Shown piece after piece: positions 4,393-7,261 of a stretch of DNA of 8,969 nucleotides. The notes beneath the pieces were generated by a model that saw nothing but the letters and a program-made list of their open reading frames with translations, searched no databases and was not told where the DNA came from. Made by a program: the position numbers and the translations under genes. The stretch is from the NCBI GenBank assembly GCA_947372155.1, contig CANBSM010000113.1:1-8969 (forward strand), written 5' to 3'. Numbering within the stretch: position 1 is the stretch's first letter; every line of letters starts with the position of its first letter. Source of the stretch: Burkholderiaceae bacterium. GTDB taxonomy: Bacteria; Pseudomonadota; Gammaproteobacteria; Burkholderiales; Burkholderiaceae.

Positions 4393-4468
4393 GCGCCCGT
4401 AGCTCAGTGGATAGAGTATTGGCCTCCGAAGCCAAGGGTCGCAGGTTCGATTCCTGCCGGGCGCACCA
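4393..4468 (+). tRNA. tRNA-Arg (anticodon CCG)
   Basis: A 76-nt tRNA with all arms. The acceptor stem GCGCCCG pairs with CGGGCGC. The anticodon stem TTGGC/GCCAA encloses loop CTCCGAA with anticodon CCG. The T arm is GCAGG-TTCGATT-CCTGC, and the 3' ACCA is encoded at 4465-4468. It decodes CGG arginine codons. The accessory DNA with an integrase starts immediately after it, so its 3' half is the probable attachment site. Confidence 0.97.
4441..4468 (+). other. probable attachment site (attL) in the tRNA-Arg 3' end
   Basis: A tyrosine recombinase gene, an Xis-like gene and a repressor lie within 2.5 kb downstream of an intact tRNA 3' end. This is the usual signature of integration at a tRNA that keeps the gene whole. 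The exact core cannot be set because no second copy of this segment is visible in the window. The coordinates simply cover the T arm and acceptor end. Confidence 0.45.
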
Positions 4469-4498
4469 GTCTTTTGGGCACATAGTTTTTAAAAAACT

Positions 4499-4535
4499 GC
4501 ATTGAAAGCTATTTTTTGCAGCTTTTAATGCTTTT
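4499..4535 (+). terminator. hairpin after tRNA-Arg, possible terminator
   Basis: GCATTGAAAGCT (4499-4510) pairs with AGCTTTTAATGC (4520-4531) over 12 positions with one G-U wobble and a 9-base loop, followed by TTTT. It lies about 30 nt after the tRNA end, in the element. It could stop tRNA readthrough. The stem is AT-rich and the T run short, so the call is tentative. Confidence 0.35.
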
Positions 4536-4558
4536 GCTATCTCTTCATTTATAAATCA

Positions 4559-4656
4559 GGCCAATACTCAAATGGTCTTTTGTGCCCAAACCGTGCCCAT
4601 TTTGTGCCTGCTCTGTGCCCACCCTTTTTGATTTGTGCTGGTTTTGAGTATTAGCC
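4559..4656. repeat. 14-bp inverted repeat bracketing the 11-bp repeat array
   Basis: GGCCAATACTCAAA (4559-4572) and TTTGAGTATTAGCC (4643-4656) are reverse complements at 13 of 14 positions. They enclose exactly the four-copy 11-bp array. Both repeats lie between the tRNA 3' end and the repressor gene, the position where recombinase accessory sites are expected. A role in integration or excision is inference. Confidence 0.75.
4582..4625 (+). repeat. four tandem 11-bp GTGCCC repeats, candidate integrase arm sites
   Basis: Units begin GTGCCCA, GTGCCCA, GTGCCTG and GTGCCCA at 4582, 4593, 4604 and 4615, exactly 11 bp apart, about one helical turn, so the same face of DNA is presented each time. 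The last five bases of each unit vary. A reverse-oriented copy next to the tRNA (TTTGGGCACA, 4473-4482) mirrors TGTGCCCAAA at 4581-4590 perfectly. A looser GTGCCT occurs at 4696. The hexamer is only sporadic elsewhere in the window. The recombinase encoded downstream has an N-terminal arm-binding domain, which makes arm-type sites the leading reading. Confidence 0.75.
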
Positions 4657-4674
4657 TCAAATTGACACACTTAC

Positions 4675-4707
4675 CGCCTTAATACCTAGATTTCTGTGCC
4701 TAAGGCG
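4675..4707. repeat. 7-bp inverted repeat downstream of the repressor gene
   Basis: CGCCTTA (4675-4681) and TAAGGCG (4701-4707) are perfect reverse complements around a 19-base loop, just after the repressor stop on the minus strand. No T run follows on either side, so it is not a standard terminator. AATTGAC also occurs as a direct repeat flanking it (4660-4666 and 4708-4714). Confidence 0.4.
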
Positions 4708-4713
4708 AATTGA

Positions 4714-4929
4714 CTAGTCGTTTTGAGCATCTGGTAGGTATTCAAATAGATCTTCGACTTTGCAATCGAAAAATTTGCATAGCTTACTAATTGCATCTAA
4801 ATCGACCCTTGCAGCAGTTTCATCGTAAAGCAGGGTGATGGTGTTCCGATGCAAGCCAGTCTCACGAGCGACATCTACCAACTTAAGTTTTCTTTCGCCC
4901 ATAAGGGTCGATAAATGGCATTTTATCAT
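4714..4929 (-). CDS. small Xre-family HTH repressor
   Basis: A 71-residue, nearly all helix-turn-helix protein of the Cro/CI (HTH_26-like) type. The HTH lies around residues 15-40 (KLKLVDVARETGL, then HRNTITLLYDE), followed by DLDAISKLCKFFDCKVEDLFEYLP, which is characteristic of this family. The opening MIKCHLSTLMGERK is typical for such proteins, so ATG 4929 is preferred over internal Met10. It is divergent from the Xis/integrase pair across a 142-bp region packed with palindromes, one of which overlaps its own first codons. That arrangement suggests autorepression and control of excision; this is inference. Confidence 0.9.
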   Translation of the reverse strand: MIKCHLSTLMGERKLKLVDVARETGLHRNTITLLYDETAARVDLDAISKLCKFFDCKVEDLFEYLPDAQND

Positions 4930-5004
4930 TCTGAATAGCTTTTTTTAATATTAAATGTAAAAAGTGCTTGCTAAATGTCATTTACTCATGCATAATGTCA
5001 TTTA
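4912..5004. promoter_or_regulatory. operator array TAAATG-N-CATTTA on a 20-bp grid
   Basis: A perfect palindrome TAAATGTCATTTA (4972-4984) is joined by two near copies, at 4912-4924 (one mismatch in the right half) and 4992-5004 (two mismatches at the left end). A clean half-site TAAATGT lies at 4952-4958. Their centres are 4918, 4958, 4978 and 4998, all on a 20-bp grid of about two helical turns. A weak 8-of-12 match sits at the missing grid point, 4938. The array covers the repressor's start and the divergent intergenic region. The Xre-type repressor is the obvious ligand; this is inference. Confidence 0.75.
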
Positions 5005-5071
5005 GGATGGCAAAAGTTAATTAAGGATTACTTTTCGCCACTTTGATTGATTTTACTACATGGAGTTAACA

Positions 5072-5308
5072 ATGGCACAGACCTATCTCACCACCGAAGA
5101 GCTATCAGCTCGCATTAAATACGACCCCCGCACAATTCGGGATCAACTTAAAGATTCTGTCTTATTAGAGGGACGTCATTATTTCCGGCCTTTTGGCGGA
5201 AGAAAGATTCTCTATATCTGGGAAGTTATTGAGGATGACATGACAAACGCGATCTCTTCGACCCTAAATCAAATCCCAATGGCGAGAGGGGGTGTTGTTC
5301 ATGTCTAA
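5072..5308 (+). CDS. AlpA/Xis-like HTH protein, probable excisionase
   Basis: A 78-residue protein starting MAQTYLTTEELSARIKYD. The winged-HTH (MerR/AlpA-like) fold of excisionases is suggested by LTTEELSARI, the helix RTIRDQL, and the wing-like HYFRPFGGRKILYIW. Start choice: ATG 5072 has GGAG six bases upstream. An in-frame ATG at 5060 would add four residues but overlaps that ribosome site, so 5072 is preferred. The last codons overlap the integrase start by 8 nt (ATGTCTAA), so translation is probably coupled. Similar small HTH genes often precede DUF3596-type integrases. The role may be directionality factor, activator of int, or both. Confidence 0.85.
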   Translation: MAQTYLTTEELSARIKYDPRTIRDQLKDSVLLEGRHYFRPFGGRKILYIWEVIEDDMTNAISSTLNQIPMARGGVVHV

Positions 5309-6959
5309 CATTCGCATCAGAAAAGAAACTGGGCGCCTCTTTCTAGATTTCCGGGTTTTTGGGATTCGCTGTAGAGAGCAAACGGAATTGGGTGATTCCA
5401 AGGCTAACCGCAAATTACTGGCCAAGCTGGATGAAAACATCAAAGTAGCTGTAGCCAATGGCTCTTACCACCATGAGCACTTCTTTCCAATGAGTAAACG
5501 CATTTCAGAAGTAGAAGAAGCGCGACTGGCTAGTGCCCCCGCCATTAATAAGGAGCGCGCCAACTTGGCCTTAGCCATTGCTGGAGCACCACCCGACCGA
5601 CCGCCATTAACCCATTCTCAAACCCCACTATTTTCTGACTTTGCCAATCAATGGTACTCAGAGATGGAAGTAGGGTGGAAGCGTTCTCATAGAACGACCA
5701 CGAGAGGTGTGCTGGATAACTCCTTAATTCCTCAATTTGGCCCTAGACTAGTAAATGAAATCAAAAAGGGTGACATTCTTACCTTTCGGGCATCTTTAGC
5801 TAAGTTGCCGGGAATTAAGAACAAAAAGAGTCTTTCTGCTTCCCGTATTAATCACATCATGACTCCATTGCGGATGATATTGACAGAGGCTGCCGACCGA
5901 TATGAATTTGCCCCGGCCTTTATCAATATCAAGCCTTTAAGAGTGGGCAAGACCGATGTGCAGCCATTCACGATGCAAGAAGTCCAAGACATTCTTCGCA
6001 CGGTTCGAGCTGACTTTCGCAATTACTACATTGTTCGGTTCTTTACGGGCACTCGTACCGGTGAGATTGATGGCCTCAAATGGCAGTACGTGGATTTTGA
6101 GCGGCGCACGATTTCCATTAAAGAGACGATTGTGAATGACTATGAGGAAACTCCCAAAACCGGAGAATCTGAGCGCGACATTCAAATATCTCAGATGGTC
6201 TTTGATGCGCTCTTGGCGCAACACAAAGTGACTGGGCAGGGCGTTTATGTTTTTGCTACTAACGCCGGAACGCCCATTTCTCATCGTAATATTTCTAAGC
6301 GGGTTTGGTATCCGCTATTGCGATTATTGGGACTGAAAAAACGTGTGCCGTATCAAACTCGCCATACCTTTGCCACCCTCATGTTGGCTTCGGGTGAGGC
6401 CCCTGAATGGATCGCTCGGCAGATGGGACACACCACCACAGAGATGCTCTTTCGGGTGTATTCCCGATTTATTCCGAACTTGACCCGTCAGGACGGAAGC
6501 GCCTTTGAGCGACTCATGGCAGCGCAGATGCAAGACCAGCCACACCCCATTATTGACCCTAATTTAGTTAATGAAGTAAGTGCACACTCAGGAATAAATA
6601 TCAACAGCATTGGAGTTAATCGCTTTCCGAAAACTCAAACCCGCGTAACCGAGAAAAATGAGGAAGGGCCAGAATTACCCGAACCCGTAGTACCGGTACC
6701 CTCCTTACAAGCCAGCTTTGCCCCTGCGAACTTACCCGATGCGCCGCCAAATGCGCTACCCAATACCCAGGCAAATCCAAGTGCTGATACCGGGCTAATT
6801 GCTAATCCTTGGTTAGAAATTGCCAGACATTCTGGTCTTTCTGTGCCCCCTCCTGCTGACCCAATCCCAGCTTCAGATCACCCAACGGAAGACCTTTATG
6901 AAACTGCCAAATCGGCCTGCACCCCTCAACCAACCCAAGAAACCTACCCGGCGAGATGA
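5301..6959 (+). CDS. tyrosine recombinase / phage-type integrase with DUF3596 arm-binding domain
   Basis: A 552-residue protein from ATG 5301, which has GAGAGGGGG eight bases upstream; an in-frame GTG at 5292 overlaps that site. Residues 1-70 match the DUF3596-type arm-binding domain (RLFLDFRVFGIRCREQTEL, then a FP-SKR end). A SAM-like core-binding domain covers about 107-205 and the catalytic domain about 220-400. Catalytic residues are Arg252 (GTRTGE), Lys286, Arg354 and His355 (YQTRHTFAT, with Tyr351 where many families have His), His377 (MGH) and nucleophile Tyr387. All are present, so it looks active. The tail after about 410 is a Pro/Ala/Asn-rich, low-complexity extension of some 140 residues with no recognised domain. 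It integrates or excises the element at tRNA-Arg. Confidence 0.95.
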   Translation: MSNIRIRKETGRLFLDFRVFGIRCREQTELGDSKANRKLLAKLDENIKVAVANGSYHHEHFFPMSKRISEVEEARLASAPAINKERANLALAIAGAPPDRPPLTHSQTPLFSDFANQWYSEMEVGWKRSHRTTTRGVLDNSLIPQFGPRLVNEIKKGDILTFRASLAKLPGIKNKKSLSASRINHIMTPLRMILTEAADRYEFAPAFINIKPLRVGKTDVQPFTMQEVQDILRTVRADFRNYYIVRFFTGTRTGEIDGLKWQYVDFERRTISIKETIVNDYEETPKTGESERDIQISQMVFDALLAQHKVTGQGVYVFATNAGTPISHRNISKRVWYPLLRLLGLKKRVPYQTRHTFATLMLASGEAPEWIARQMGHTTTEMLFRVYSRFIPNLTRQDGSAFERLMAAQMQDQPHPIIDPNLVNEVSAHSGININSIGVNRFPKTQTRVTEKNEEGPELPEPVVPVPSLQASFAPANLPDAPPNALPNTQANPSADTGLIANPWLEIARHSGLSVPPPADPIPASDHPTEDLYETAKSACTPQPTQETYPAR

Positions 6960-7261
6960 CGTTTTGGCATCGCCGACACTAACCCCCCTAACAAACCTAT
7001 GATGTTCATGATCTACATAATCATATCGGTTTCACCAAGGGTAATGAACCTAATCAAAATCACTATTATGGTCAATAGTACAAATAATGAAATCGTTATC
7101 AAGCAGTGCCTTATGCCCAAGGGCTGCACATTGCCGTCCAGTGCTTTGCCCGGATAGTAGATGGATCACGCATTTTTCGGCAGAGAGTAACCTCCTTTCG
7201 ATCGCAATCTATACATAATTTCATAAAGCAATACTAAGTATCAATTTAAAGGGGCGTAGAT
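6960..7261. other. non-coding gap after the integrase
   Basis: No supported gene, RNA or terminator is seen. Reading frames are short: the longest I traced is 37 codons (7044-7157), with an AAGGG only a base or two from its ATG. A ribosome-binding AGGGG near 7250-7254 belongs to the small frame that follows. GGGCGTA (7252-7258) and TACGCCC (7278-7284) form a 7-bp inverted repeat around that frame's start. Confidence 0.5.

Follow-up and report, generated by a model that had tools for sequence, protein, structure and literature searches.

The window, as the whole stretch of 8,969 nucleotides analysed here will be called, is Polynucleobacter-like, its nearest named relatives being members of that genus. 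It carries a tRNA-Arg(CCG) gene followed in order by a short array of phased direct repeats, a minus-strand gene for a Cro/C1-type repressor, a gene for an 82-residue Xis-like protein and a gene (int) for a tyrosine integrase with PF12167 and PF00589 domains. The array is the subject of this report. It is very probably the arm-site cluster, a P'-type arm within attL, of an integrative element that has inserted at the tRNA gene. The features on which the argument depends, and those surrounding them, are as follows.

4393 to 4468, plus strand: tRNA-Arg(CCG), predicted by ARAGORN, attachment site of the element family; its 3' part (nucleotides 44–76) is duplicated at the boundary of the related element L005
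4475 to 4482, minus strand: single inverted unit-like sequence, TGGGCACA, immediately 3' of the tRNA; its counterpart in L001, L006 and L092 is CGGGCACA
4558 to 4572, plus strand: left arm of an inverted repeat, holding a 12-nucleotide reverse copy of tRNA segment 4414–4425
4582 to 4588, plus strand: putative arm-site unit 1, GTGCCCA, from the motif-free scan and direct reading
4593 to 4599, plus strand: putative arm-site unit 2, GTGCCCA (GCGCCCA in L001), from the unit-chain search
4604 to 4610, plus strand: putative arm-site unit 3, GTGCCTG, from the unit-chain search
4615 to 4621, plus strand: putative arm-site unit 4, GTGCCCA, from the unit-chain search
4643 to 4657, minus strand: right arm of the inverted repeat; class-2 Polynucleobacter elements have a related GAGTRCTAGCC stretch
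4696 to 4701, plus strand: isolated fifth unit-like GTGCCT, weakly conserved in relatives (compare L001 and L006)
4714 to 4929, minus strand: Cro/C1-type repressor (HTH_26; Pfam PF13443, E 3.3e-19)
5060 to 5308, plus strand: Xis-like protein of 82 residues, taken as Xis by position and size and conserved across unit classes
5301 to 6959, plus strand: tyrosine integrase with an Arm-DNA-bind_2 domain (PF12167, E 3.7e-14; PF00589, E 1.7e-15)
5301 to 5444, plus strand: arm-binding part of the integrase, residues 1–48, a module exchanged in relatives, in which residues 5, 7, 14, 18 and 27 track the units

The array in the window

The units start at 4582, 4593, 4604 and 4615. An earlier note on this DNA had described four GTGCCC units at an 11-bp period beside a tRNA attachment site. 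The period is confirmed by direct reading and by a motif-free scan of 4469–4713 at periods of 8–15, which found the array at period 11 with a score equalled by none of 2000 dinucleotide shuffles. The unit sequence stands for three of the four, the third (4604) reading GTGCCT. The neighbouring tRNA gene is indeed an attachment site, being marked as such by the duplicate of its 3' part in L005. Only the 6–7-bp units repeat, since the spacers AAACC, ATTTT and GCTCT (seventh base counted in) all differ. A 39-bp array pattern, composed to match this very site, has a single occurrence in the window and is absent from all 200 dinucleotide shuffles. GTGCC itself is not enriched (20 observed against 17.9 expected); the unusual feature is the arrangement of the units, not the frequency of GTGCC.

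Recurrence beside related integrases

Related integrase loci were drawn from the best 80 of 577 confirmed in a scan of genome contigs, from one viral locus and from 186 genomes of the same genus. With the window these gave a first set of 88 loci, 87 of them with at least 500 bp upstream; 26 loci from 399 further genomes were added later and three duplicates dropped, giving 111. Counts exclude L002, the partial loci L087, L093, L100, L136 and L137, loci refetched from genomes already included (L082–L086, L126, L140 and L224) and the duplicates L115, L117, L119 and L216.

A four-unit array scoring at least 5.0 lies upstream of int in 32 of the 87 loci, always at period 11. Shuffles reached this score in 16 of 3480 cases, scattered over eight periods, with two at period 11. 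A unit-chain search, which fixes unit bases 3 and 5, permits A or C at base 4 and would miss other classes, found an array in 46 of the 111 loci, every one in the sense of int. The same search found none within the int gene (0/111) and four on the reverse strand (4/111), all of them TGGCCC arrays read backwards. Addition of L033 and L034, missed by the chain rule but seen in the first set of loci, brings the total to 48 of 111 PF12167 integrases with three to four int-sense units upstream at a step of about 11 bp (four units in 37 loci, three in 11). All four loci of the window's own Polynucleobacter class (the window, L001, L006 and L092) carry the array, and its period, position and orientation are conserved among array loci. 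The tRNA genes nearby include those for Arg(CCG), Pro(CGG), Met(CAT), Val(CAC) and Val(GAC). Members of the tRNA-Val(GAC) group (L096–L099) have a tRNA gene that runs opposite to int, which places the array on the 5' side of the tRNA. The family integrase is almost missing from viral contigs, with no match in one search and one locus in another.

Position of the array and ends of the elements

Three GTGCCC units at 11-bp steps occur at 12 distinct sites in 11 of the 399 further genomes, against one hit for a reversed control pattern. Three of the 12 are minisatellites with constant spacers. Of the nine sites with variable spacers, seven are located 46–123 bp from a tRNA gene, and the eight genomes that hold the nine include five with the integrase family (E <= 1e-70), compared with 19 of 399 overall. 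A family integrase is on the same contig for four of these sites, twice within 1.5 kb, once at about 3.2 kb and once at about 46 kb. In the third case (genome G374) another open reading frame (ORF), methyltransferase-like by eye, lies between array and int. For four further sites no family integrase was found in the 18–20 kb scanned downstream, G247 having only a weak match to the catalytic domain (E 5.9e-4); the last site is near a contig end. In these cases the array keeps to the tRNA rather than to the int promoter. L236 and L242 (genomes G210 and G319), where arrays lie beside tRNA-Arg(CCG) or tRNA-Val(CAC) with no family integrase in about 19 kb downstream, are perhaps remnants of lost elements.

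The far end of an element was recognised in L005, where 33 nucleotides from the 3' part of the tRNA recur about 8 kb away from it, with the anticodon-loop sequence CTCCGAAGC before them; this duplicate identifies the tRNA as the attachment site. The related element of about 8 kb between tRNA-Arg and the partial copy (L005 9165–17170) carries an AbiEi/AbiEii-type pair. Within the window neither a copy of the tRNA end nor the far end of the window's own element was found. Two ends, neither of them the window's, were examined for further units, and none was found in the 400 bp left of the L005 attR, nor to the left of the copy of the tRNA at the junction of L009 and L027. In these two elements the arm units seem to lie on the tRNA side only, and a lambda-like layout with two arms was not seen.

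Covariation of the units with the integrase N-terminal domain

The units differ between elements, falling into the classes GTGCCC, GTGACC/T, GTGACA, TGGCCC, GGGCCC, GGGACA and GAGACA. Over 36 non-redundant loci (630 pairs), the distance between units correlates with that between integrase N-domains (Spearman 0.446) far more than with distances for the catalytic domain (0.139), Xis (0.113) or the repressor (0.153, a value that includes some repressor ORFs chosen by length alone and wrong). The catalytic-domain tree of the 48 array loci requires at least 20 changes of unit class.

The most informative columns of the N-domain are 7 for base 1, 27 for base 2, and 14, 18 and 5 for bases 4 and 6. 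Base 4 is A exactly where residue 14 is not F (48/48 loci), and A at this position also goes with a residue 18 other than R or K (46/48; exceptions L017 and L131). A base 2 other than T goes with Y or L at residue 27 (47/48; exception L060), and T at base 1 with a residue 7 other than R (46/48; exceptions L060 and L127). In phylogenetically independent pairs, taken on supported branches and averaged over 200 pairings, residue 14 scores 7:0 (p 0.016) and residues 27 and 7 each score 5.8:0 (median p 0.031 each). AlphaFold2 predicts the N-domain as three strands, at residues 3–7, 12–19 and 22–31, and one helix, with a predicted local distance difference test (pLDDT) score of 95. The N-domains of Tn916 and lambda are absent among the matches listed in a structural comparison.

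Since the repressor and xis genes are part of the same exchanged cassette (see below), linkage alone could couple both to the units. Both correlate weakly with the units, however, and Xis stays similar from one unit class to the next, which argues that it is the integrase N-domain that reads them. The suggestion in the earlier note of tandem arm sites for the DUF3596 (PF12167) domain is thus supported, as the array recurs with the family and covaries with this domain, whilst the other possibility it raised, sites for the Xis-like protein, finds no such support.

Prediction of units from the protein

A rule for predicting the units from the residues was fixed in writing before the sequences of the test loci were inspected. 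Arrays were present in 10 of 23 non-duplicate loci in a first test set and in 6 of 15 in a second, from which L216 was dropped as a duplicate of L036. In the tally over these 16 loci the fourth member of the L222 chain, which is off-step, was omitted and L131 entered with three units. The rule was right for base 2 in 11 of 12 predictions (L127 wrong), for base 4 in 12 of 12 (nine C, three A) and for base 6 in 11 of 12 (L215 wrong); base 1 was right in 14 of 14, all predicted to be G and hence uninformative. Residues 14 and 18 gave no prediction in four loci.

A seventeenth locus, L139, has L7, F14, R18 and Y27, which predict TGGCCC. Its array, beside tRNA-Arg(CCG), matched the prediction, with three TGGCCC units and one TGGCCT at 11-bp steps. 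The integrase of L139 is 74% identical to that of L023, itself a TGGCCC element. Totals over the 17 loci are 13/13 for base 4, 12/13 for bases 2 and 6 alike, and 15/15 for base 1, with one informative T. A post hoc rule with residue 14 as the sole predictor of base 4 is right for 15 of 16 loci. The exception, L223 (Y14, R18, unit GTGCCC), breaks this single-residue rule and so points to residue 18 as a partner at base 4.

Exchange of the array and its proposed reader

In Zoogloea, two elements at the same tRNA-Arg, L009 with GTGACC units and L023 with TGGCCC units, have integrases that are 99% identical over residues 76–400 and 54% over residues 1–48. Their DNA, compared in 60-nucleotide windows, is 82–97% identical from -970 to -760, before the array, 43–85% from the array through the repressor, xis and N-domain, and 85–100% from about nucleotide 140 of int. 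Comparison of L009 with L033 (GTGCCC) gives the same profile, except that identity in int rises earlier and to lower values (73–98%). Similarly, integrases of the window's class and of class-2 Polynucleobacter elements are 95–98% identical in the catalytic part and 54–56% in residues 1–48, the units being GTGCCC in the former and GTGACA in the latter. Judged by these profiles, the array, repressor, xis and N-domain exchange as one cassette whilst the tRNA target and the catalytic domain stay; arm specificity would therefore change against a constant background.

In each of five integrase pairs found within 60 kb on one contig, the key residues differ. On a contig of Zoogloea oleivorans (NZ_SDKK01000004.1), L009 and L027 lie about 52 kb apart, with a GTGACC array at the tRNA and a TGGCCC array at a 33-nucleotide copy of the tRNA 3' part. 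Of the two co-resident pairs in which such a copy was sought beside the second element, it is present for L027 and was not found for L138. That arm specificity sets the compatibility of co-resident elements is only suggestive, because the key residues also differ in 60 of 100 other pairs with catalytic identity of at least 90% (the five co-resident pairs excluded, and many pairs non-independent), and L112 and L129, on different contigs of one genome, share the same key residues.

The inverted repeat and other features of the window

The array was earlier described as nested in a 14-bp inverted repeat, complementary at 13 of 14 positions. A repeat is present, and measures 15 nucleotides with 14 of 15 complementary. 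Its arms match the D-stem/anticodon part of the tRNA at 12/12 and 12/13 nucleotides; they are near copies of 12–13 nucleotides, one per orientation, of GAGTATTGGCCTC, a tRNA-Arg segment next to the anticodon loop (4414–4426 for the segment, 4558–4569 and 4646–4658 for the copies). The nested design does not hold beyond close relatives. The repeat occurs in 4 of 48 array loci (the window, L001, L006 and L092), all of one Polynucleobacter class, and was not found in the other 44, although L118, L069 and L122 have different, shorter inverted repeats there. Exact 12-nucleotide tRNA-like arms were seen in 4 of 29 array loci with a tRNA in reach, L066 having a further 10-nucleotide match. The inverted repeat and its tRNA-like arms were rejected as a feature of the family on these counts. 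The array architecture does without the repeat in other elements; where present, it may represent core-type or accessory sites, or a by-product.

Several other observations concern the surroundings. Between the tRNA and the array, a hairpin with T-rich sequence after it is present in the window (4499–4531) and, by eye, in L027 (about 9200–9235), which would fit a terminator brought in by the element for the tRNA gene. Several similar palindromes of the AAATG[GT]CATTT type occur in the interval 4912–5005, between the repressor and xis genes, and look by eye like repressor operators. The Xis-like protein has no Pfam, PHROG or PADLOC family match at the thresholds used. At its C-terminus the integrase is extended by more than 100 residues (6531–6959), which are predicted to be disordered (pLDDT mostly <50) and are missing from the listed relatives of 395–451 residues that are 52–57% identical. 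Behind the integrase, an ORF at 7246–7584 matches an IS66-type TnpA accessory protein (NCBIfam NF047593).

Interpretation and alternative explanations

The array has an attachment core and an arm-binding integrase next to it, and its units are conserved, of fixed orientation and follow the N-domain. Its architecture, conservation, covariation and exchange by cassette are direct observations, and together they make an arm-site cluster very probable. Binding, the docking of protomers and a role in recombination are what we infer from them. In the proposed mechanism, each 11-bp step would offer one 6–7-bp unit, on the same face of the DNA, to one Arm-DNA-bind_2 domain. The three-stranded sheet of this domain would read the unit, residue 7 corresponding to base 1, residue 27 to base 2, and residues 14 and 18 (and 5) to bases 4 and 6. 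N-domains bound to the array would position the integrase protomers with their catalytic domains within reach of the tRNA core, and Xis would control direction. A further step is tentative, and we hold it less likely than not: a one-sided phased array of four units may dock all four protomers of the tetramer, and a portable cassette with a simple residue–base code may let elements with near-identical catalytic domains share a genome without mutual excision.

Two results weigh against the arm-site interpretation. The earlier note proposed aligning related DUF3596 elements, and held that absence of the repeats beside the same integrase would speak against such sites. Comparison of the related loci bears out the phasing in the 48 array loci, but 63 of 111 loci have no such array upstream of the integrase. 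Among these, L003 has <700 bp of upstream DNA, many have no tRNA within 2.5 kb, and in two genomes an array is found elsewhere on the same contig, at about 46 kb from the integrase locus in G308 and about 3.2 kb upstream of it in G374. In the reverse direction, none of 74 viral-contig stretches with an array has a recombinase within 3 kb, and many of them repeat the spacer too. The motif alone is not diagnostic of a recombinase element. A set of 43 such stretches (L141–L183) has four GTGCCC/GTGCC units at 11 bp, many with the spacer TTGCT, and no recombinase was found nearby. That arrays of GTGCCC or GTGACY at 11 bp exist apart from recombinases, and that three of the 12 genome sites are constant-spacer repeats, would be expected if the array were a product of chance or a decaying 11-bp minisatellite without function. 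This is extremely improbable for the window, where, as in its relatives, the spacers differ and the whole period is not repeated, and where the array belongs to a set conserved in position, orientation and period whose units covary with a protein.

The units may instead be bound by one of the other two proteins encoded in the cassette. Xis-type proteins can line up on phased repeats, and the Xis-like protein, as a recombination directionality factor oligomerising along the units, is a candidate by this property and by the place of its gene within the exchanged cassette. We consider it very unlikely to be the reader, as Xis is very similar between elements with different units (L009, L023 and others), its distance barely tracks them, and the tRNA-Val group has a diverged Xis yet the same layout of four units at 11 bp. 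The units could also be operators of the helix-turn-helix repressor, whose gene is adjacent and inside the cassette, or of some regulator that acts on transcription of the tRNA or of int. We rate this just as poorly, for the repressor gene has the array at its 3' end, on the side opposite the repressor–xis intergenic region, and repressor distance tracks the units weakly, albeit with some ORFs wrongly called by length. Moreover, the tRNA-Val group has a different small regulator and still keeps the array, and in G374 the array remains at the tRNA with about 3.2 kb and another ORF before int. Finally, the functional unit might be the inverted repeat, as a cruciform or as core-type sites flanking the array. 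Its arms are conserved in all four loci of the class and match the tRNA segment next to the anticodon loop. The repeat is missing from 44 of 48 array loci, and only its right arm resembles the class-2 stretch, so that the odds against it are as long as those against a minisatellite.

Arm sites are hard to predict, being short and differing between elements. If binding experiments bear out the code, arm sites would become predictable from protein sequence, natural domain-swap pairs would be at hand for experiments, and island ends and array remnants beside tRNA genes could be marked. It would also be testable whether arm specificity sets the compatibility of elements that share an attachment site.

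Comparison with known systems

The P' arm sites of lambda are in tandem, spaced about 10 bp, which is about one helical turn. The window's array had been called denser than the lambda layout, a view that does not survive comparison with this spacing, nor with mycobacteriophage Pixie, in which three putative arm sites on one side share a direct orientation (PMC3203893). The array resembles lambda P'1–P'3, where a tyrosine integrase reads short sites apart from the core through its small N-terminal domain (PMC4880445), the reader here being predicted. It differs in sequence and in number, with four units in 37 of 48 loci against three P' sites. In lambda attP, sites read by the Int N-terminal domain occur in both P and P' (PMC4880445), whereas no far-side units were seen in the two elements checked here.

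In domain content the window's integrase compares with the IntBPP-1 subgroup of tyrosine recombinases, in which PF12167 has been placed and described as three strands and a helix (Smyshlyaev et al., PMC8138268). The integrase of the window likewise has PF12167 followed by PF00589, and the same fold is predicted for its N-domain. The available part of that paper gives no arm-site sequence for the subgroup. In the KplE1 prophage (IntS, TorI), attL is located beside the tRNA gene argW and contains arm-type sites for the integrase (PMC2951348), as is proposed here. The prophage's int promoter overlaps attL and is autoregulated (PMC2951348), whereas here int is separated from the array by the repressor and xis or by other ORFs.

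A direct precedent is offered by the Cluster K mycobacteriophages CrimD, Anaya, Adephagia and Pixie, where 11-bp repeats have been proposed as arm sites and changes in the sites linked with substitutions in the integrase at residues 17 and 19 (PMC3203893), so that sites covary with the N-domain there too. In that cluster the sites form pairs on both sides of the core (three and three in Pixie), in a handful of close relatives (PMC3203893). The present family, by contrast, has an array of three to four units on the tRNA side, spans several genera, and shows several residue–base pairs and swaps of the whole cassette. No description of such an array or code was found in the titles and abstracts of the open-licence literature searched. 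The proposed arm-site array is of a known kind, whilst its unusually regular geometry, the residue–base code and the modular swapping appear to be new.
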